From contig CALVRV010000009.1 in the NCBI GenBank assembly GCA_944358865.1, positions 1 to 46,682 on the forward strand: a stretch of 46,682 bases of DNA, read 5' to 3'. Positions 12,937 to 43,646 of the stretch are shown here, one piece after another (position 1 is the stretch's first letter; each line of letters begins with the position of its first letter). The position numbers were made by a program, and so were the translations under genes. The stretch comes from an uncultured Bacilli bacterium (GTDB lineage: Bacteria; Bacillota_I; Bacilli_A; RFN20; CAG-826). The notes beneath the pieces were generated by a model that was given only the letters and a program-made list of their open reading frames with translations, ran no database searches and was not told the DNA's origin.

Positions 12937-13908
12937 TTAATGCGAATTATTTTTGGTTGATATTATCCATAATGCCATCGGATGATTTTTTATTCTATTA
13001 ATAATTTCATTGTCATCAAATAAAAGCTCAGGACAATAATTATTCTTTTCAAACTCGTTAATGAATTTAGTTTCGGATTCGTTTAATTTCAGTAAATTTG
13101 AAACAAAACATTTAATCATATTTACTGCATCAATCATTGAAAATTTATCATCTTTTTTAAGAGTTGAAGAAAGATACTGTGGTATTTTATCTACCATATA
13201 TGCACTGATTTTAATTTCAAAATCGGTTAGCACCTCGTTAAACAATCTATCAGTAGTTTTGCCTATTACCATATAGAATATTACACATTTCTTTACTAAA
13301 TCAAATTCTGATTCAGTAAACAAATTTTCTTTAAGCATATGGTAAACATCATACACGTCTCTAATGGTACATCTTTCAATAAGAGCCTTAATTTTAGAAC
13401 CATACAACTCATATTTATTCAGGGTTAGTATTTTAAAAGAATTTAAAAAAGGTATAGAAATACTTCTTATAATTGGTTTATAGACATGTGTTCTATTCAT
13501 ATAATTAATTTCAATTTTTAGATTATCTTTATTTCCAAAATTGTTATTGTAATTGAACACAAACGAATCTAATGCGTGTTTGGATTTAGTTTCATCACTT
13601 AGATTATAGTTGTTAATTTCCATATATCTTCTAATGATAGTTGTAATTTCTTTTCTTTTTTCTAGCATTTCATCTTTAGTGCCGCTAAAGGAAAAATCTA
13701 AATCTATATCAACACTTAATCTAGGAAGATTAAATATAGTAAAGTTAATTGACGTGCCTCCCTTAAGAACTAAATAAGGAGAAAGTTCATCTGTTTTGCT
13801 TATAAAAATTAATATGTCAATTAGTCTGAGAACTTTTTCTAAACTTTCACTTCTAAAGCCGTTTTCTTTTGCTAAAGCAACTATTTCATGTTTTTTGTAA
13901 TTAAACAT
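12937..13908 (-). CDS. abiEii: AbiEii-type nucleotidyltransferase toxin
   Basis: The toxin of an AbiE (type IV-like) toxin-antitoxin and phage-defence system. AbiEii/MenT proteins are nucleotidyltransferases that bind or transfer nucleotides and stop growth. The family motifs are present: KGGTS at 49-53, then LPRLSVDIDLDF with Asp67 and Asp69, the metal-binding pair. Further on, LYGSKIKALIERCTIRDVYD carries the conserved Lys and the late Asp. The length is 323 aa. The gene begins 4 bp after the antitoxin stop, and its Shine-Dalgarno AAGGAG is formed by the last two codons of the antitoxin, so translation is probably coupled. An 8-bp inverted repeat (CCTAAAAA 12886-12893 with TTTTTAGG 12926-12933) lies just past the stop. 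Confidence 0.9.
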   Translation of the reverse strand: MFNYKKHEIVALAKENGFRSESLEKVLRLIDILIFISKTDELSPYLVLKGGTSINFTIFNLPRLSVDIDLDFSFSGTKDEMLEKRKEITTIIRRYMEINNYNLSDETKSKHALDSFVFNYNNNFGNKDNLKIEINYMNRTHVYKPIIRSISIPFLNSFKILTLNKYELYGSKIKALIERCTIRDVYDVYHMLKENLFTESEFDLVKKCVIFYMVIGKTTDRLFNEVLTDFEIKISAYMVDKIPQYLSSTLKKDDKFSMIDAVNMIKCFVSNLLKLNESETKFINEFEKNNYCPELLFDDNEIINRIKNHPMALWIISTKNNSH

Positions 13909-13912
13909 ATGA

Positions 13913-14653
13913 TTACTCCTTATTAATGTAATTTTTTAAGTCTTTGTAAATAAATATTTTCCACTCGGAATTATATACATGAGCGCTTTTGTTTTTGTCA
14001 AAATGTCCTTTTATAGAATCTGATATCTCGTGACATTTATCAAAGAAAGAATCAGGAATATTTAGTTTATCTTTGAATAGTGATAAAATGATTCCAACTT
14101 TTTTATAAAGCATTTTGGAATCAATTTGTTCTAAATACTTTAAAATATCTTTTATCGAGATATATGGAACCATATTGATGCAATTTAATGTTTCCTCCAA
14201 CTCGCAATATTTGCCAGAATCTTTAATTGAATCTACTATAGTTCTCTCGATTGAAGTAACTTTAATGCCACGAATCTCTTCAACAAAGTGTGTGGAAGAT
14301 GTTTTAATTAAAGAAAATGAGTTTCCTTCAAATTCAAAAGTATTAAATCTAGAAATAGATGATACATTTACATTGTTATAAACTTGATTATAGTAGCCGT
14401 AAAATTCAAATGCAGAATGATGTGATATATAAGAAGTATCGGTAATATGAGAAGCAATTAAAAATTTATCGGCAATACACTCATTAGTTTCTAAACTCAC
14501 AACGCCATACAAATTATGTTTAATACGTTTTATATAGCCTTTTTTTAAATAGTTTTGTAGAAGCATTTTTGCTAGATTGTCATCTTTTATCATAGTTGCA
14601 AAATCTTTTCTATTAAAAACTTTATATTTTGTTAATTCATTTAAATACTTCAT
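13913..14653 (-). CDS. abiEi: AbiEi-type antitoxin and transcriptional regulator
   Basis: The antitoxin of the pair, 246 aa. It opens with a winged-helix region (about 1-55: KVFNRKDFATMIKDDNLAKMLLQNYLKKGYIKRIKHNLYGVV), followed by the AbiEi core SHHSAFEFYGYYNQVYNNVNVSS and the KVTSIERTIVDSIKD block. In known AbiE systems this protein binds inverted repeats in its own promoter and represses the operon; the toxin is neutralised without a stable complex. TATAAT (14670-14675 on the minus strand) and a GGTGG ribosome site precede the ATG. A long imperfect inverted repeat (14700-14771) just upstream is the obvious operator candidate. Confidence 0.85.
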   Translation of the reverse strand: MKYLNELTKYKVFNRKDFATMIKDDNLAKMLLQNYLKKGYIKRIKHNLYGVVSLETNECIADKFLIASHITDTSYISHHSAFEFYGYYNQVYNNVNVSSISRFNTFEFEGNSFSLIKTSSTHFVEEIRGIKVTSIERTIVDSIKDSGKYCELEETLNCINMVPYISIKDILKYLEQIDSKMLYKKVGIILSLFKDKLNIPDSFFDKCHEISDSIKGHFDKNKSAHVYNSEWKIFIYKDLKNYINKE

Positions 14654-14699
14654 CTATACCACCAAAAATATTATATCAAATTAAAAACAATAAATTCAA

Positions 14700-14771
14700 A
14701 TAAAAAGGTTAAAATTCTACTTTCTAGGGTAATTTTTATTACCTTCTAGAGATTTTTTTAAACCTTTTTAT
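14700..14771. repeat. Long imperfect inverted repeat upstream of abiEi
   Basis: The outer arms ATAAAAAGGTT (14700-14710) and AACCTTTTTAT (14761-14771) match over 11 bp. The inner arms TCTAG-GGTAAT (14723-14733) and ATTACC-tt-CTAGA (14738-14750) match with a two-base bulge. It could be an AbiEi operator or a bidirectional terminator that insulates the locus. Confidence 0.6.
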
Positions 14772-14937
14772 ATTCGAGGATATTTTTTAAAAATTAATTG
14801 TTTATATTTAGCAATATATATATATTAAAACAATTCTCTTCTGTTAGAAATGATTTAAATATTTCTTATTTTCAATAGTGTGTAACAAAAATAGTGAAAA
14901 TATTTCACACTCAAAATAAATGGCGCTATTACAATTA

Positions 14938-14976
14938 ATTTACTGCATAAAAATATGCAAAAAATATGCAGTAAAT
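14938..14976. repeat. 12-bp perfect inverted repeat with internal TATGCA copies
   Basis: ATTTACTGCATA (14938-14949) and TATGCAGTAAAT (14965-14976) are perfect inverted copies separated by 15 bp. The loop contains another TATGC. It lies about 200 bp before the HNH gene. It may be a protein-binding site or an RNA hairpin. Confidence 0.55.
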
Positions 14977-15177
14977 CAATAACTTAATATTGTAAAAATT
15001 CAAATCTAAGTTTAACTAATACACCACAATATTAAAGTAGATATAACTATCTTTTTTTGTGGATTATCTAATGCATCACTACATAGCAAAATCTTTACGA
15101 ATAAAGGAAAAATTAAACGCAACAAATAGGAATTAATAATTTCTTTCTTTTCCCCTATTTTAAGATAAAATAAAAAT

Positions 15178-16029
15178 ATGATTTTAAGTTTGCTTGATTT
15201 ATTTGAAATAGGAATGTTGATATTTTCTATAGTTTTAATAGTTATTTTTCTTGTAATAATTATTTCAACTTTAATTGTTAGACGAAATAATAAATATAAG
15301 GATTTTGTCTTACAACATAGTGCTGCTTTAAGGCAATTAAATGAAATTAATAGGCACTATCAATTTAAAGATATTCCTAATTTTGATATGAAAAATTCAT
15401 ACGACAACGAACATTTTTATGAAGATATTTCGTGTCGAGACTATCTAACCTATCAACTTGTTTATATTCAAAAGAAAGTTAGTATTGCCTTAAAAGACAC
15501 TCTCGAAAATAATAAATTATTTGATGAATATAGAAAAGAAATTGGAGATACTTGTGTTATGAACCAATACGACACTTCTAATTTATTAAAAAATAGAAAC
15601 AAACTCACTAGAATTGAAAATAATCTTTTTAATAAAAGTATTAAAAAACCAACTACATTATTTTCAATAAAAGTTAGACTAATATTAACTAATATCAATG
15701 GTGAATACCGTGATTCAAAAAGTGATGAATTTGTTCCTAAAGAGATTAAAGACATTATTTTTAGAATTAATCAAAGAAACGGAAGCTTTTACGTAAACGA
15801 TGATATATGGAAATCCATATGCAGAGTCGAACGCGGCAAAGTCTCTAATAAGATGAGATTTGCTGTTTATGAAAGAGACCATTATAGATGTAGAAAGTGT
15901 GGCAGAAAAACTAACGATTTGGAAGTTGATCACATTATTCCCATTGCAAAAGGCGGCAAATCTACATTTGATAATTTACAAACCTTATGCCATAGATGTA
16001 ATTATGAAAAAGGCTCTAAGATTGAATAA
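15178..16029 (+). CDS. Membrane-anchored HNH endonuclease
   Basis: A 283-aa protein with one N-terminal transmembrane helix (about 8-35, IGMLIFSIVLIVIFLVIIISTLIV), then basic residues, so the rest should be cytoplasmic. The middle (40-220) is charged and unrecognised. The C terminus is a complete HNH domain: CxxC at Cys238/Cys241, Asp251-His252, Asn266, His272, with a second CxxC (Cys271/Cys274) holding the structural zinc. This bba-metal fold cuts DNA. Membrane tethering suggests action at the envelope, for example on incoming DNA, but that is inference. No Shine-Dalgarno is seen; TAAGAT (15161-15166) sits just upstream. Confidence 0.82.
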   Translation: MILSLLDLFEIGMLIFSIVLIVIFLVIIISTLIVRRNNKYKDFVLQHSAALRQLNEINRHYQFKDIPNFDMKNSYDNEHFYEDISCRDYLTYQLVYIQKKVSIALKDTLENNKLFDEYRKEIGDTCVMNQYDTSNLLKNRNKLTRIENNLFNKSIKKPTTLFSIKVRLILTNINGEYRDSKSDEFVPKEIKDIIFRINQRNGSFYVNDDIWKSICRVERGKVSNKMRFAVYERDHYRCRKCGRKTNDLEVDHIIPIAKGGKSTFDNLQTLCHRCNYEKGSKIE

Positions 16030-16112
16030 ACCAATATAACGTTAAAGATAATCATAAAAACAAAAACTTAGACTAAATAAGACTATGTTATAAAAGAGAT
16101 ATTAAAGAAAGA

Positions 16113-17003
16113 TTAGCTAAGTATTTCGATATATTTGCTAAGTCTTTCATAAAGGTATCTTGAAAAGAGTTGGACCATTGGTTTTAAATCACCTTTGACA
16201 TGATATGCATCAAAAGCATCGTAATAGGATTTATGGTCAGTATATTTGATATCAATTGGAGGATATCCCAATTTCATCAATTCTAGATTTATAAGAAGTC
16301 TTCCAGTTCTTCCATTTCCGTCAATAAATGGGTGGATGGCTTCAAATTCGATATGGAATTTTGCTAATTTGGTAACAAAGTCTACATCAGTGTTTTTATA
16401 CCAATCAAGGAGTTCGTGTAATTTTGGTTCTATAAGATATGGTTGAACAGGAGTGTGTTTTGCTCCAACAATAGTGACAGGAATTTTACGATAAACACCT
16501 CTATCTTGAGGCTTGTTTGCTAAAACTAGGTAGTGAATTTGTTTGATGACAGATTCAGATAATTCCTTTTTTTCTTTTGCTATATCAGAAATATAATCAA
16601 ATGCTTCTTTATGGCCAATAGCTTCCATATGATCCTTAAGAGGTTTTTTATCAATCGTTAAACCGCGTAATACTAAATCAGTTTCTCTAAGAGTAAGAGT
16701 GTTGCCTTCAATTGCGTTGCTGTTATATGTATATTCGACAGCAAAATCATAATTAAGTCTTTGAAGTTCACATTCAGTTAATGGTCTTTTTTTATCAAGC
16801 GCTATTTTGAGTTTTTCTATTTTAGATAAGTATGCATTAGGAGATTTAATTCTTCCATCAGCAGGTTTAACTGCATTATCAGGAATATACCAGGTTTTAC
16901 CAATTAATTCCGCTCCTTCAATTTTGCCCTTCGCACACAAAATTCTCACTCTTCGATCAGAAATACCCCATAATTCACTAGCTTTTTTAGTAGTTATTGC
17001 CAT
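16113..17003 (-). CDS. Fic-family protein with N-terminal HTH, class II
   Basis: A 296-aa Fic (FIDO) enzyme, expected to transfer AMP or a related group to a protein. The catalytic loop is complete: HPFIDGNGRTGR at 224-235, with His224, Asp228, Asn230 and Arg232. An inhibitory helix sits upstream with Ser95...Glu99-Gly100 (SNAIEGN), making this a self-inhibited class II Fic. Residues 1-48 form a MerR/excisionase-type HTH (TKKASELWGISDRRVRILCAKGKI...TWYIP), so the protein probably also binds DNA. AGGAG sits 9 bases before the ATG. Three TATCGGAAT repeats cover its promoter, strongly suggesting autoregulation. It is divergent from a second, different Fic gene. Confidence 0.92.
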   Translation of the reverse strand: MAITTKKASELWGISDRRVRILCAKGKIEGAELIGKTWYIPDNAVKPADGRIKSPNAYLSKIEKLKIALDKKRPLTECELQRLNYDFAVEYTYNSNAIEGNTLTLRETDLVLRGLTIDKKPLKDHMEAIGHKEAFDYISDIAKEKKELSESVIKQIHYLVLANKPQDRGVYRKIPVTIVGAKHTPVQPYLIEPKLHELLDWYKNTDVDFVTKLAKFHIEFEAIHPFIDGNGRTGRLLINLELMKLGYPPIDIKYTDHKSYYDAFDAYHVKGDLKPMVQLFSRYLYERLSKYIEILS

Positions 17004-17017
17004 TTGACATATTCTCC

Positions 17018-17069
17018 TATCGGAATAATTATAACACTTATCGGAATAATAAAAAACATTTATCGGAAT
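17018..17069 (-). promoter_or_regulatory. Three TATCGGAAT direct repeats over the HTH-Fic promoter
   Basis: TATCGGAAT starts at 17018, 17039 and 17061; the first two extend to TATCGGAATAAT. The spacings are 21 and 22 bp, two turns of the helix, so all three sites face the same side of the DNA. The minus-strand -10 TATAAT (17033-17028) lies between repeats 1 and 2. Repeat 1 overlaps the expected start, repeat 2 lies in the -10/-35 spacer, and repeat 3 is upstream of -35. Confidence 0.7.
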
Positions 17070-17200
17070 GAAATATAAGTAATATAAACAAGCGTTTAGC
17101 GGTATCGTAGAATTAGAAAATATTTAATATAAGAAGTTTATTTCTTTCTTTGTTTTGAAAAGCGAATTTAATAAATGGGTAAAGCGGCACATAGTTTACT

Positions 17201-17243
17201 AATAGTGAAAAATAGTGAAAAAATAATGAAATTATGTTATCAT
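17201..17243 (+). promoter_or_regulatory. Tandem decamers and extended -10 before the second fic gene
   Basis: AATAGTGAAA occurs at 17201-17210 and 17211-17220, and AATAATGAAA at 17222-17231. They directly precede an extended -10, TGTTATCAT (17235-17243). The one-turn phasing resembles a direct-repeat operator. The same 10-mer is found at 14890-14899. Confidence 0.4.
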
Positions 17244-17261
17244 TATGGCACGAGGTAATTC

Positions 17262-18311
17262 ATGATTAAAATTGTATTAACTAATGAAATGCTAAATGCC
17301 ATTTTAAATATTGAAAAGAGCAAAGATTCTCTTAATCGAATCAAGATTCCCACTTCTTTATCCAATAGATTTAGGAAGAATACAAAAAAAAGAAGTACAT
17401 ATGCATCAAATAAAATTGAAGGTAATCCATTAACTTTTGAACAAGCCGACAAAGCTATTGAAAACAAAAATAGGCATTTATTAAAACCAGAACAAGAAAT
17501 CAAAAATTATTATCTTGCTTTAGAAATGCTCGAAAAAAAATTAGAAAAGCAAGAACCTCTCTCTTTAAAACTTATTTTAGATGTTCAAAAACAAATTTGT
17601 GAAGGAGAGCCAAAAGAAATGATTGGATTGCGAGGCGCTATGCCTTGCGGAGTTTTGTTTGCTGTCTGGAATGATGATGGTACCCCCACATACATACCAC
17701 CTGATCATAGCGAAGTTAAGGCTCTATTAAATGAACTAATTTCTTATGTAAATGATTCAGATGATCATCCAATTCTTAAAGCAGCAGTTATTCATTATCA
17801 ATTAGTAACAATTCACCCGTTTGAAGATGGCAATGGTAGAACTGCTAGAATCATATCTAATTATTATTTATCTTTAAGCGGTTATGGCTTTAAAAATATT
17901 GGATCATTAGAAGAATACATGTCATACAATATTGATGAATACTATGATTCACTTCAAATGAATCTTCCTGTCTTATATTATGATGGCAGAAACAATCCTC
18001 CTCATCCTGAAATTTGGATTAATTATTTTTTAAAGATTTTCACACTTTATACTTCTAAAGTCTTATCTATTGCTTTAGATGAAACACACGCTAATGAGAA
18101 TAAAAGAATGTCTCACCTATCTTTTAAAGCAAAAGCATTTTTAGAATATTTAAGAAAACATAATATTGAATTATTCACGCCTATTGAGTTGTCTAGAATA
18201 ATGAATGTTACAAATAGGACAATTATTAATTGGTGTATAGAACTTTCAAATAATGGTTTTGTTGAGCCAATTATTGTAAATAAAAGGATTAGACGTTATA
18301 AAGTCTTATAA
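17262..18311 (+). CDS. Fic-family protein with C-terminal HTH, class II
   Basis: A 349-aa Fic enzyme unlike its divergent neighbour in architecture. The catalytic motif HPFEDGNGRTAR is complete at 185-196. The inhibitory helix carries Ser49...Glu53-Gly54 (SNKIEGN), so this is also class II. GLRGAMPCGVLFAVW and YIPP are the flap and core segments common to Fic proteins that have a C-terminal winged helix. The C terminus (about 285-349: ELFTPIELSRIMNVTNRTIINWCIELSNNGFVEPI) is a winged-helix DNA-binding domain. GAGGT precedes the ATG. It is convergent with the helicase gene at 18368. Confidence 0.92.
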   Translation: MIKIVLTNEMLNAILNIEKSKDSLNRIKIPTSLSNRFRKNTKKRSTYASNKIEGNPLTFEQADKAIENKNRHLLKPEQEIKNYYLALEMLEKKLEKQEPLSLKLILDVQKQICEGEPKEMIGLRGAMPCGVLFAVWNDDGTPTYIPPDHSEVKALLNELISYVNDSDDHPILKAAVIHYQLVTIHPFEDGNGRTARIISNYYLSLSGYGFKNIGSLEEYMSYNIDEYYDSLQMNLPVLYYDGRNNPPHPEIWINYFLKIFTLYTSKVLSIALDETHANENKRMSHLSFKAKAFLEYLRKHNIELFTPIELSRIMNVTNRTIINWCIELSNNGFVEPIIVNKRIRRYKVL

Positions 18312-18367
18312 AGACATATTTTTACTAACTTTTATTATTTCAGTAAGTAGAATGAATTTATTATTAT

Positions 18368-21300
18368 TTATTCTTCATCAAATAAACTCATCTGCTCATA
18401 TGCATCATCAATGCTAGGCAAGCCTTTAACAACAAATTCAAATAAGCTAATGATTGATTCATAATCTTTAACAACACTATTGGGAATTCTTATTAATTTA
18501 ATACCATATTGTTTGCATATATTTTCTTTTTCTCTATCAAGTATTGCTGTTTTTCTACTGCCAATATGTTCACCACCATCAATTTCAAAAGCAACAATTG
18601 TGTGGTATTGTCTATTTAAAAAACCGCTGCTGACTTGAACAATTACATCAAATTCTTTTTTGCCAAATAATTTTAAATCGTTATCGTTAACTTTTTTAAT
18701 TGCCTTTTTAAGAGGAACATTTCTTTCAACTCTAAATTTAGAACCACGTCTATTAAAATATGGCTGCACAGTATCAAAAAAGTCTTTTTCGTTTTTAGAA
18801 TCGTTTGAAAAATCATATGAAATTATCGCGTCACTTTTTGGAACTATAATCTCACCATTTTTATAAACGTAATCAGAGAGCACTTTGATATCATTTTTCT
18901 CATCCCCACTTAGTTTATCAATTGCTTCTTTATCGCCTACAAAAATGAATTTTTCTTTTGCTCTTGTGACACCAACATTAATAAGCTCATGGTTATTTTT
19001 AATCCATTCCATTGTCTTTTTAGCAGTTTTAATTGATAAGGCAGCAGACATAATAATTACTGATTTTTCTGAACCTTGCAAAGTATGGATTGTTCCTGCT
19101 CTAACATCATTTATTCCTAATTTTATTAAATTTTTGTTTATTAATGCAGCTTGATTAACAAATGGAGTAATGATTCCAGCGTCTTTATAATTATTTTCTT
19201 TAATGATTTTTGCAATCTCATTTGCTTCTTCGTTATAAGAGTTTCTTGCATTTGGATTATACATATTTTTAACATTGTAATAAATCAAATCACCAGGTTT
19301 TTCATTAAGCAATTTTAATTGATCGTCATAAAATCTTTGGTTAACAAAACTAACTATTTTTTTGCCACATCTATAGTGATATCTAAGAAGGATATTCTTT
19401 GAATTGTTATCTTTTCTTAGCATTGTCGAAAGAATGGAATTTTTAATATAGTCATATTCTTCACTTATACCATATTTTTCCATCAGATGTTCATTTACAT
19501 TTTGTTCTATAACAGTGACTGGTTGTAGTTGATTTGTGTCGCCTACTAAAAGCAAATCTGCACCTCTTACAATAGGTATAAGAGATGTTGCAGTGTTACA
19601 CTGCCCTGCTTCATCCATAATTACAAGATCAAATTGTGGTTTTGGACTGCCTAATTTTTCACATGAGATGTTTGTGCAAATAACAATAGGAAAAATAGAT
19701 AATAGTCGTCTTAGATTAATATCGTTTCTAAGCCATTTGTTAAATCGTCTAACACCTTCACTTATATCTTTAGTTTCGATGATATCAATTAATTCTTTAT
19801 ATGTATCATTAAATAGTTTTTTAAATCTTAATAAAGAGGAATAATAAAGATAATTTTTAAAATTTTTATCCTCAGATGCTGATATTGCGTATTTAAGAAT
19901 ATCGCTATCACTGATGATTCTAGCGGTATTTAATTTATCTTGATACGCATCAATCTGACTATCTAATTTATTATTGATTTGGCTTATTGTCGTGAGCCTT
20001 CTTATTTTTTTAAGCGTTTCTATCCTATCTTTTAAATCTAATTGCCCCTCATATTCCATGATTAAATCTTTTAATTCTTTAAAATTAGATAATGATTTAC
20101 TTTTACTTGCTTGAGTTAATTCTTCTTTAACTTTTAACTTTTCATGTTTAGAAACAAATTGTATTATTTCTCTTAATTTTAATATTGTTTCTTGCATTTC
20201 TATATTGTTACCTAGACGAATCATTGGGAAAATAATCTTTTCTTCTTCGTTAGCATAAGGTCTAGTTATACTTAATGAATTATCTAATTTTGTTAAAATA
20301 TCTGAAACAGGATGATTATTATTAGAACATACTAAAACTGTCTTATCGTTAGCGTAAGCAGATAAAATAACATTGAATATTGTTTCTGTTTTGCCAGTGC
20401 CTGGTGGACCTTTTACATATGTAACATGATTAATCATTGAATTATAGACAACTCGAATTTGATCAATATTGATTTTATTTCTATTAAAAACAACAATATT
20501 TGCTTCTTTAGATGATTTACTTTTACTTTTGTTCCTACCAAAAAAAGCCTTAATTGGTGTTGATAATTTGCCATCTAAATCCATTTGATGAATAGTTTCA
20601 AATGTTTCATCCACACCATGTTGGTTGTTTCTTGCTAAGAAAAAAATAGTTGGGCGAGTATTTATTAATTCCCCATTACGAAAATTTTGTTCTATTAATT
20701 CGATATATTCGTTTTCGTTTTTATCATAATTTGTAGTGAAATCATCTGGATCAATATCTAAATACATTCCAAGTGTTATTTTCTTGTCTTCGTTAATAAG
20801 AAAAGATTTATTAATAGATGATTTTTGTGACATTTTAAGTGTTTTATCTTTAAAATTTAACGTTAAACCACGATATGCGACAACATATTGTTTATCATTG
20901 ATATCTATTGAAAATTTATTAATTGCTAGAATTTGGTAGCGATTAATTATTTCTGCTTCATACTTAGGTTTTTTAAATACTTTCTCTAAAAGAATATTAA
21001 ATTGTTTATCATCTAATCTATATTTACCACTTTCAGTTAAAACATGAGTGTCTATCCCATCTACCATTACTATTTCTTTTAAAAATGGATCATTATCTAA
21101 ACGATAACAATCTGATAAATATCTTAAAATATTATTATCAAAATTTATTACCTCAAGATATTCTTCTATATTTTTGTTATTAGAAACTTTTAATAATAAT
21201 TCTTTAGAAGTTTCATAATAACTTTGCTCTAATATTTGAGCAGATTTAATTCTTCCAATATATATGAAAATGTCTTTGTTTTGGCGTTCTTCTAATATAT

Positions 21301-21475
21301 TGTTGCTTTTAAAAGCATTAAAAATATCACATATAATTATTCCTTTATCAATATCAATATCTTTTATTCCAATATAATAGTTTGTAGATTCACCATTTTT
21401 ATTGGTGTATGAAACATCTAGCCATTTATTGTTTATAATAGCTTGGTATATTGAATTTTTAATAGATAGTTTCAT
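18368..21475 (-). CDS. SF1 helicase with WYL-like N terminus and C-terminal DUF2726/Vsr-like nuclease
   Basis: A 1035-aa multidomain protein. Residues about 1-90 look like a WYL ligand-sensing domain (IYQAIINNKWLDVSYTNKNGES). The SF1 (AAA_11/AAA_12, Upf1-like) motor has Walker A GPPGTGKT at 356-363 and motif II at 621 (MDEAGQ). Later motifs follow: GDTNQLQPV, RYHYRC, AGTIHTLQGSEKSV and NVGVTRAK. A helical insertion lies between motifs Ia and II. The C terminus (about 900-1010) has a DUF2726-type restriction-like core: EFDVIVQV, then FEIDGGEH with Glu964/Asp966, then a Lys and LIRIP. All key residues appear intact. AGGT lies close to the ATG. Similar helicase-nuclease fusions occur in single-gene phage-defence systems; a defence role here is inference. 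It is alone, with the MATE gene divergent. Confidence 0.85.
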   Translation of the reverse strand: MKLSIKNSIYQAIINNKWLDVSYTNKNGESTNYYIGIKDIDIDKGIIICDIFNAFKSNNILEERQNKDIFIYIGRIKSAQILEQSYYETSKELLLKVSNNKNIEEYLEVINFDNNILRYLSDCYRLDNDPFLKEIVMVDGIDTHVLTESGKYRLDDKQFNILLEKVFKKPKYEAEIINRYQILAINKFSIDINDKQYVVAYRGLTLNFKDKTLKMSQKSSINKSFLINEDKKITLGMYLDIDPDDFTTNYDKNENEYIELIEQNFRNGELINTRPTIFFLARNNQHGVDETFETIHQMDLDGKLSTPIKAFFGRNKSKSKSSKEANIVVFNRNKINIDQIRVVYNSMINHVTYVKGPPGTGKTETIFNVILSAYANDKTVLVCSNNNHPVSDILTKLDNSLSITRPYANEEEKIIFPMIRLGNNIEMQETILKLREIIQFVSKHEKLKVKEELTQASKSKSLSNFKELKDLIMEYEGQLDLKDRIETLKKIRRLTTISQINNKLDSQIDAYQDKLNTARIISDSDILKYAISASEDKNFKNYLYYSSLLRFKKLFNDTYKELIDIIETKDISEGVRRFNKWLRNDINLRRLLSIFPIVICTNISCEKLGSPKPQFDLVIMDEAGQCNTATSLIPIVRGADLLLVGDTNQLQPVTVIEQNVNEHLMEKYGISEEYDYIKNSILSTMLRKDNNSKNILLRYHYRCGKKIVSFVNQRFYDDQLKLLNEKPGDLIYYNVKNMYNPNARNSYNEEANEIAKIIKENNYKDAGIITPFVNQAALINKNLIKLGINDVRAGTIHTLQGSEKSVIIMSAALSIKTAKKTMEWIKNNHELINVGVTRAKEKFIFVGDKEAIDKLSGDEKNDIKVLSDYVYKNGEIIVPKSDAIISYDFSNDSKNEKDFFDTVQPYFNRRGSKFRVERNVPLKKAIKKVNDNDLKLFGKKEFDVIVQVSSGFLNRQYHTIVAFEIDGGEHIGSRKTAILDREKENICKQYGIKLIRIPNSVVKDYESIISLFEFVVKGLPSIDDAYEQMSLFDEE

Positions 21476-41240: not shown

Positions 41241-43646
41241 ATGAAAAATAAAAAATATTTGTTATTAATTCCAGTTGTTGCTTTAGGTCTTACAGCATGT
41301 CAAGACCCTACAACTACTACAACAAGTGATCCTGGATCTACTACAACTACTAGTGAGCCAGATCCTACTACAACAACCACTGAGCCGCCTGCGCCAGTAA
41401 TTAGTGTTGCTAGTGTCTTAGCTAAATTACAAGAATCTGATGTCGCTATAAGCGGTGTTTATGATTATTCTGTCACCACTATTATTGATGGTGAAGAATA
41501 TCCACAGGTTTATTCTACTATCGATTGTTTTGTTTCTAATGAAAGATATTACAATGTAGAAACAGACATTACAACTGAGACTGTAGTATGGTCTATTGAT
41601 TATTTTGCTAATCCAGAAACTGGTAATATTGAAGCAAGATATCTTGATCCGACAACAAATGAAGCCACATCTTCTGAATTATATGATCAAACAACAGGCG
41701 AACCAGTATTATTTGCTTCACAATATTATAATCCATTCCTCATGATTGAAGAATCTAGTGGTCAATTAGTAAATGACACAGTTTCTTTTGCTCTTGATGA
41801 ATTAGCAGGCGGAGAACTTTGGGGCATTTTAACTGGATATGAGGGAATTGCTGAATATTTAGATGTCAAAGTTGATTTAGCAACCGGAGATTTAATTAGT
41901 GCTTCTCTTGGTATGGAACCAGTCGTGCAAGAAGGTCAATTCGAAGGTGATGAGACCGTTTATGAAATGCGTGTTGAACAAACATTTGATTTTGATTTTG
42001 TAAGTGAAAGCGAATTAAATATGCCAAGTATTGAACCACGTACAAAAACTAGCGATCATACAGCTTTAGAAGAAGCTTTTGCAAGTTTACAAGCTGGAAA
42101 TTACACTGTTGATTATGTTGCAACAGATACAGAAGATCCAACTTCTGTAATTGAATACCACATTGTTGTTACACAAAGCGGTATTGAAATAGATGAATCT
42201 TATGGTGTTATTGCAACTGATGAAGGTTCTGTTGAATACGAAATTAATGCTTCTAATGAAGTAGTTGCAGCTTCAACACCTGATGCAGAAGTTGATGTAT
42301 TAGATTACGCTGCACCATTTAGTATTCTACCTGAAATGTTTGATTTAGTAGGTGAAAATACTTATGTTTACGCTGTCAGTGGAACAGAAGATTTATTACC
42401 ATTAACAATGCCAGAATATGTCGCGGGTTTAATTAATACACCTTATGAAGGCACTTTTACCATTACATTAAATAGTGATGACACAATTACTATGTCTTAT
42501 ATTTATGGTGTTGAATTCTTTGGAATGATTTTATATGAAGAAGAAGTAGAAGTAACAATTTCAAATATTGGTTCTACTGTTTTCCCACATAGTCCAGATG
42601 ATTTAGTGCCATTTACTCCTGCTGATAGTTGGGAAGATATACCAGAAGCAGTGGAATTTTTAAATGAACTTGGCTTACCTGTAGAAGATTTCCCATGGTG
42701 GTTGCCTGAAGGCGCAGATACTTGGGAAGTTAGTTATTCATATTTCTATACCACAACAACTGCGACTGAAGATGAATTCTTACAACAAGCTCAAGAAGTC
42801 TATGAAGCCGCTGGTTGGGTTTACACTGGTTTAAATGACTATGATGAATATGAATTTACATATCAATTAGACGCATCAACAATTATTCCAATCGGATTAG
42901 TGTATGATGGTGGTGATGTTCAACTTTGGTTATATGATCCAGAAATTATCTACGAAGATACAGCAATTGACACCTGGTTAGAAACTAATTTTGCTAATCA
43001 AGAAGAACAAAATTATACTTTATCAGTAACACTTACTGAAAGTATTACCCCAGCTCAACTTGATGCTGATGGATATCCAAGCCTTGTCGAAGGTGCTAAA
43101 CCAGTTACTACTGTCTATGAAACAACATTACAAGCAGATGGAGACGTCGCGCGTATTGTTTCTGGCAATGGCGATGAAAGATATTACACTAACGATGCAG
43201 AAGGTGGAGTATCTAATTGGACACTTGCTGATGGTACATGGTCTAGTCAAAAAGTAACTGACTATGATGGTAGCCAACTAGATTCATGGCAACAAAATGT
43301 ACTTTATACCCCATATGATTTAATTGGAATGGAAGGATTTTCTGCTACAGATGATCCTAATGTAGTCGATATTAAAGACACCACCTCTGATTCATATGCG
43401 ATGGATTATATAATTGGTTTAGGCAATATTTCAATTGAAGCCGCTGTTGGGGATAGCGATTTAGCATCTGGTACTGCTACTCTTGATCCAGAAACTAATA
43501 CTTTAACATTTGATATTGCTATAGCTGGTGCTTACTATTATCTTGATGAAACAGAAACAACAGTGGGTTATGTTGAACAAACATTAGAAATTGTTGTTTC
43601 AAATGTTGGTACAACCGAAGTTACAGTGCCATTTACTCTTGCATAA
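41241..43646 (+). CDS. Large paralogous lipoprotein C (mosaic)
   Basis: An 801-aa lipoprotein. Its signal peptide, Cys20 lipobox and Thr/Pro linker (1-54) are almost identical to lipoprotein B, at DNA level too. The body, however, follows lipoprotein A: ISVASVLAKLQESD, YFANPETGNIEARYLDP, YYNPFLMIEE, APFSILPEMFDLVGENTY, one Trp module (Trp464, DFPWWLPEGADTW, AAGWVYTG) and the final VEQTLEIVVSNVGTTEV. The break point is therefore near residue 54. GGGAGG precedes the ATG. The function is unknown; probably an exposed surface protein. Confidence 0.88.
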   Translation: MKNKKYLLLIPVVALGLTACQDPTTTTTSDPGSTTTTSEPDPTTTTTEPPAPVISVASVLAKLQESDVAISGVYDYSVTTIIDGEEYPQVYSTIDCFVSNERYYNVETDITTETVVWSIDYFANPETGNIEARYLDPTTNEATSSELYDQTTGEPVLFASQYYNPFLMIEESSGQLVNDTVSFALDELAGGELWGILTGYEGIAEYLDVKVDLATGDLISASLGMEPVVQEGQFEGDETVYEMRVEQTFDFDFVSESELNMPSIEPRTKTSDHTALEEAFASLQAGNYTVDYVATDTEDPTSVIEYHIVVTQSGIEIDESYGVIATDEGSVEYEINASNEVVAASTPDAEVDVLDYAAPFSILPEMFDLVGENTYVYAVSGTEDLLPLTMPEYVAGLINTPYEGTFTITLNSDDTITMSYIYGVEFFGMILYEEEVEVTISNIGSTVFPHSPDDLVPFTPADSWEDIPEAVEFLNELGLPVEDFPWWLPEGADTWEVSYSYFYTTTTATEDEFLQQAQEVYEAAGWVYTGLNDYDEYEFTYQLDASTIIPIGLVYDGGDVQLWLYDPEIIYEDTAIDTWLETNFANQEEQNYTLSVTLTESITPAQLDADGYPSLVEGAKPVTTVYETTLQADGDVARIVSGNGDERYYTNDAEGGVSNWTLADGTWSSQKVTDYDGSQLDSWQQNVLYTPYDLIGMEGFSATDDPNVVDIKDTTSDSYAMDYIIGLGNISIEAAVGDSDLASGTATLDPETNTLTFDIAIAGAYYYLDETETTVGYVEQTLEIVVSNVGTTEVTVPFTLA

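Follow-up and report, generated by a model that had tools for sequence, protein, structure and literature searches.

Some DNA methyltransferases autoregulate through an N-terminal helix-turn-helix (HTH). For potentially toxic Fic enzymes, the means of restraint are known for few bacterial cases. The class II Fic protein CccR of Yersinia pseudotuberculosis represses its own gene via a fused HTH (PMC9755527). In CbFic2 of Coxiella burnetii, binding to DNA alters the oligomer state and turns AMPylation activity into deAMPylation (PMC10628234).

The window (the whole 46,682-nucleotide stretch of DNA analyzed here, from an uncultured Bacilli bacterium) encodes a Fic protein with an HTH at its N-terminus, and the promoter of its gene carries a tandem array of a short word. 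The features at and around this gene are as follows:

15178-16029, plus strand: HNH nuclease-like protein adjacent to the Fic genes; its N-terminus is hydrophobic and membrane-like
16113-17003, minus strand: HTH-Fic gene, 296 aa, comprising a winged HTH (residues 1-41), a linker (about 42-54), and a class II Fic domain
16881-17003, minus strand: N-terminal winged HTH, with helices at residues 5-12 and 16-24 and, at 32-41, a wing of two strands
17014-17017, minus strand: putative ribosome-binding site GGAG, from sequence
17018-17026, minus strand: candidate operator copy, exact ATTCCGATA, just downstream of the -10 element, over the presumed transcription start and abutting the ribosome site
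17028-17033, minus strand: putative -10 element TATAAT with TG before it (extended -10, written TGT-TATAAT), from sequence
17039-17047, minus strand: candidate operator copy in the -35/-10 spacer, within the full TATTATTCCGATAA
17061-17069, minus strand: candidate operator copy upstream of the -35 position
17262-18311, plus strand: second class II Fic gene (SNKIEGN and HPFEDGNGRTAR; SoFic profile E 1.6e-46), divergent from the HTH-Fic gene

A preliminary description of this DNA had reported three repeats starting at 17018, 17039, and 17061, 21 to 22 bp apart, and had held such a triple to be unexpected by chance. Both points were confirmed. The word TATCGGAAT was found without mismatch at 17018-17026, 17039-17047, and 17061-17069, with start-to-start distances of 21 and 22 bp, and no further exact copy was present in the window; read on the minus (gene) strand, the unit is ATTCCGATA, whose consensus form is TATTRTTCCGATAA. 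At least three copies of TATCGGAAT occurred in none of 100 dinucleotide shuffles (expected number, 0.35). When the window was simulated with a second-order Markov model, no 9-mer with at least three G/C was found three times within 60 bp (0/100), and any such 9-mer triple at all was seen in 3/100. A separate triple in the window, CTACTACAA at 41314-41374 with 24- to 27-bp spacing, lies within an 801-aa open reading frame and is probably a coding repeat. Across the source genome (1,193,275 bases in 39 contigs), the spaced TATCGGAAT pair was found at this locus only, and single copies with one mismatch were not enriched (106 versus 164 for the reversed control), indicating that it is the array that is special and not the word. 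Since single copies were not enriched and the spaced array was unique in the genome, we ruled out the word as the mark of a genome-wide regulon. Among the papers listed by a literature search with the letters of the motif, the matches were only primers and unrelated sequences.

With the ATG of the HTH-Fic gene at 17003 (minus strand), the copies were found to lie over the presumed start, in the -35/-10 spacer, and upstream of the -35 position, as had been described, but the -35 element itself is weak here and strong in the homologues: the window has a poor TTTTTT or TTTTTA, which was not called by a consensus scan. The distance from motif to -10 is as in the homologues. The scanner also called a plus-strand promoter, TTGACA-17-AATTAT, at 17004-17032, which points in the direction opposite to the HTH-Fic gene and overlaps the repeats.

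The search of homologous HTH-Fic promoters that the preliminary description had proposed recovered the same spaced motif. The promoter set (n = 81) comprised the window and 80 homologues, 53 to 82% identical over nearly the whole chain, with hosts including Clostridia, Lactococcus, and spirochaete MAGs. The upstream regions of the homologues are otherwise dissimilar, yet the same array is present: at least three copies within 200 bp were found in 62/81 HTH-Fic promoters versus 0/700 control 200-bp stretches, and at least two copies in 73/81 versus 8/700. The homologue consensus is TATTRTTCCGATAA. Its TTCC was required in defining a site, and the G after it is conserved at 99%. Consecutive spacings fell between 19 and 24 bp in 150 of 175 cases, with peaks at 20 and 22 to 23 bp, and the copies ran forward in 169 instances and in reverse in 4. 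Some HTH-Fic promoters carry palindromic or near-palindromic copies and not a pure direct array (TTATTCCGATATCGGAATAA in L038, TTATTCCGATAACGGAATAA in L076, and TTCCGATATCGG in L221). Two more members of the subfamily of the window protein, from its own order, also have TTCCG arrays. One relative (L108) is without the motif, and in the more distant L220 to L222 the sites are weaker or rearranged.

The homologues have a 17-bp spacer and good -35/-10 hexamers, and the last copy sits in the spacer, which is the most constant position. The commonest register, counted from the -10 (a TATTAT inside the following repeat was not accepted as one), places copies at -16, -36 to -38, and -58 to -60. In most relatives the copies sit further upstream, without a copy over the start, while a copy after the -10 as in the window was matched at six positions of the homologue set, at offset +5. 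The three copies belong to a wider array, which occupies up to four positions in relatives; this amends the earlier account. Copies A, B, and C have a common logo, even though just one of them overlaps promoter elements; a single logo at different promoter positions indicates that the motif is more than a promoter element.

Across 35 homologue genomes, 27 of the 31 array matches were HTH-Fic promoters (16 genomes). The other four (L119, L124, L126, and L144) were read as chance; L119, L126, and L144 lie inside open reading frames, as does L113 from the scan of the window's class, and L124 lies within or antisense to one. Among 296 genomes of this class, two had the array, i.e., the genome of origin and the one with the match in coding sequence (L113). 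A 398-genome phylum sample around one homologue gave, apart from the matches in that homologue's own genome, 6 single matches in the 397 others versus 9 for the reversed control. In the scanned genomes, the array outside HTH-Fic promoters therefore occurs at the background rate only, and not as the common motif that would have spoken against a link with this gene.

By motif, the HTH-Fic protein is a class II Fic. The Fic motif HxFx(D/E)GNGRxxR is present as HPFIDGNGRTGR at residues 224-235 (H224-PFIDGNGRTG-R235), with most columns invariant in 33 homologues, and the inhibitory motif (S/T)xxxE(G/N) is present N-terminal to the Fic core (S95-NAI-E99-G100), with S95 kept in at least 90% of these homologues and E99 and G100 invariant. 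Pfam matched Fic (PF02661, E 1.2e-21) and HTH_17 (PF12728, E 4.4e-5); for the latter, the cut-off being 27 bits, the whole protein scored 24.1 bits, the first 66 residues alone 27.7 bits, and the HTH of one homologue 40.6 bits. The 361-position SoFic profile of PADLOC was matched by residues 62-269 only (E 3.1e-33), which leaves the protein outside SoFic. An AlphaFold model (pLDDT 88.9) showed the HTH helices and wing, a less certain linker, and then the Fic fold, and the full chain matched FICD in Foldseek (E 4e-12), so that an AMP-transferase (AMPylation) role is predicted from motif and fold. The recognition helix is S15-DRRVRILC23. The HTH alone gave phage Xis and the MerR-type HiNmlR as top matches (probability 0.96-0.97, E about 0.2-0.4); with such E values, the excisionase/MerR-type assignment made earlier is supported as a fold resemblance only.

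The stretch 12937-21475 resembles a defense island, with AbiEii, AbiEi, the HNH protein, the two Fic genes, and a Mokosh-like helicase, and the neighborhood of the HTH-Fic gene reads as such an island from its predicted gene content. The second Fic gene has no repeat motif on its own upstream side.

A search with the HTH alone found the same HTH in many architectures. Stand-alone HTH proteins of 60 to 75 aa have TTRTTCG in the -35/-10 spacer (16/38 within 150 bp), and one more has TTRTTCCG (total, 17/38), against backgrounds of 1.6% and 0.5%, respectively, in control 150-bp stretches (together about 2%). TTRTTCG also lies in the promoter spacer of HTH fusions to D12 and Eco57I-type methyltransferases (L172, L185, and L212; the domains of L185 were assigned by eye). 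In a second HTH-Fic branch, with a helix of the SVRNYC type, TTGCCG (TTGCCGATAA) was found in 12/12 spacers, namely 5/5 at first (one a 119-aa truncated frame) and 7/7 from genomes fetched afterwards. Four Fic relatives without the HTH had no such site.

Some of these promoters show further arrangements. Second-branch members L173, L199, L214, L224, L227, L230, and L231 have TTGCCGATAA in the spacer and an inverted TATCGGCAAA or ACGGCAAA further upstream, an arrangement that is inverted and not direct. HTH-AAA-ATPase/PDDEXK and HTH-LuxR-type fusions (L193, L194, L160, and L190) show distinct repeats of their own close to the -10 (TTCGGAA/TTCCGAA; TACGAA-N2-3-TTCGTA).

The type of site depends on the type of HTH. 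With Arg at HTH residue 20, the site was TTCCG in 76/77 cases (TTCG in one), and with any other residue it was TTCG in 21/22 (TTCCG in one), an association with a Fisher P of 3e-19 that ignores kinship. One protein, L156, has the same kind of helix, yet TTRTTCG and not TTCCG. The three site classes can be placed on a tree of 94 HTHs with only four changes, indicating that the site goes with the HTH lineage and has switched independently few times. Judging from the compared sequences, the site tracks the HTH and not the Fic domain. What this adds is that the operator appears to belong to the HTH module and to be shared, with variants, by other enzymes bearing the module. A broader reading is quite possible, although we lean slightly against it: the winged HTH may be a portable self-regulation cassette that reads its own promoter spacer in Fic, DNA methyltransferase, and AAA-ATPase/nuclease fusions or alone, by a code that can be read in part (Arg20 for TTCCG, Gln and others for TTCG, and the SVRNYC helix for TTGCCG), and where a Fic enzyme is the fusion partner, tandem-site assembly may also set the oligomeric state and hence AMPylation or deAMPylation.

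Since the word stands before nearly all relatives and changes with the DNA-binding part, the repeats are very probably the enzyme's own landing site. We hold with good confidence that they form the operator of the HTH-Fic gene, to which the HTH would bind on tandem same-face repeats in direct negative autoregulation, as the most parsimonious reading. The earlier suggestion that a Fic enzyme is directly autoregulated by its own DNA-binding domain thus gains support from the phylogenetic footprint of the sites, their specificity, and the HTH-linked changes. In the mechanism we propose, several protomers would bind the tandem TATTRTTCCGATAA sites via the N-terminal excisionase/MerR-like winged HTH. 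The sites, 20 to 23 bp (two helical turns) apart and in one orientation, would present roughly one face of the DNA, as these spacings deviate from 21 bp by at most about 70 degrees, and the protomers would assemble cooperatively, head to tail. Once occupied, the sites would cover the promoter spacer together with the start and the DNA upstream of the -35, RNA polymerase would be excluded, and a potentially toxic AMP-transferase would be kept at low synthesis. The data show that the sites are conserved, that they keep their position and orientation, that they are specific to this gene family, and that they depend on the HTH type. Physical binding, cooperative assembly, and repression rather than activation are what we infer; self-repression of a class II Fic protein via a fused HTH is plausible given the CccR precedent (PMC9755527).

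The positions of the sites alone are compatible with activation as well as repression. The HTH-Fic protein might bind the repeats and activate the promoter by MerR-like realignment, in positive feedback, as the spacer copy lies where MerR activators bind and the -35 is poor in the window. We regard this as improbable, because the homologues have a standard 17-bp spacer with good hexamers versus 19 to 20 bp in MerR-activated promoters, the copy over the start favors blocking, and CccR represses. A shade less probable again is that the repeats are read by another host regulator, or by a stand-alone HTH relative in trans. Such relatives of 60 to 75 aa do exist, with related sites in their own promoters, but the genome of the window has no other HTH of the family, the site is kept in groups as far apart as Clostridia, Lactococcus, and spirochaete MAGs, which have only the gene in common, and it changes with the gene's own HTH.

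The similarity of the HTH fold to phage Xis and the location in a putative defense island would also fit repeats that serve a mobile element as excisionase-like or integrase arm sites. This is very unlikely, given the fixed register with the -10/-35 across homologues, the lack of any tRNA in the window, and the equivalent sites in methyltransferase-fusion promoters. The chance of a mere coincidental repeat in AT-rich DNA is negligible: one other 9-mer triple does occur in the window, at 41314, but the simulations argue against coincidence and conservation in 80 homologues already refutes it. Self-repression by the HTH-Fic protein is thus the reading we retain.

The widespread HTH-Fic family appears to have an operator of defined sequence, spacing, and orientation. 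Natural operator variants paired with HTH variants make DNA recognition, autoregulation, and a possible link between DNA binding and AMPylation testable in laboratory strains, and the array may act as a sequence signature by which further HTH-enzyme fusions with self-regulation, several of them defense-like, could be found.

Like the autoregulating DNA methyltransferases, the HTH-Fic protein is an enzyme with its own N-terminal putative DNA-binding regulator; those enzymes use other HTH families and operators, while D12 and Eco57I-type methyltransferases also occur fused to the HTH family of the window protein. RptR likewise represses its own promoter through three direct repeats, of which two are needed, and lies in a defense island, but it is an unrelated 9-kDa protein with a 6-bp palindromic core and not an enzyme (PMC12255303). 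CbFic2 is also an HTH-bearing class II Fic, although its HTH is C-terminal and of DeoR type, its role is different, and the available part of its description gives no specific operator (PMC10628234). MerR proteins proper, which dimerize through a coiled coil, differ in both partners: in the model, the HTH runs into the Fic domain without the MerR coiled-coil effector region, and the promoter has a 17-bp spacer with direct repeats in place of a palindrome in a 19- to 20-bp spacer. BldC of Streptomyces is closer, being a small MerR/Xis-like winged HTH on same-orientation repeats, AT-rich plus CG and variable in number; it is, however, a stand-alone protein of 68 aa on adjacent 9-bp units, AATTXXXX(C), whereas here the HTH is fused to an enzyme and the units are 20 to 23 bp apart (PMC5859096), so that the contiguous direct repeats of about 9 bp typical of the BldC family, in which the HTHs touch head to tail, are not found. 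CccR shares the combination of class II Fic and HTH, direct binding near the -35/-10 of its own gene (here, a predicted and conserved operator that overlaps the gene's own promoter), and the lack of a separate antitoxin regulator, but it is a secreted effector whose HTH is C-terminal and of another type, and as a dimer it binds a single inverted repeat, AGATAATCAT-N26-ATGATAATCT, as its operator (PMC9755527). Here, the HTH is N-terminal and the repeats are tandem and direct, with 169 forward and 4 reverse copies. By the features compared, the HTH-Fic protein is a member of neither the MerR, the BldC, nor the CccR group, and it would appear to work like BldC and CccR combined.
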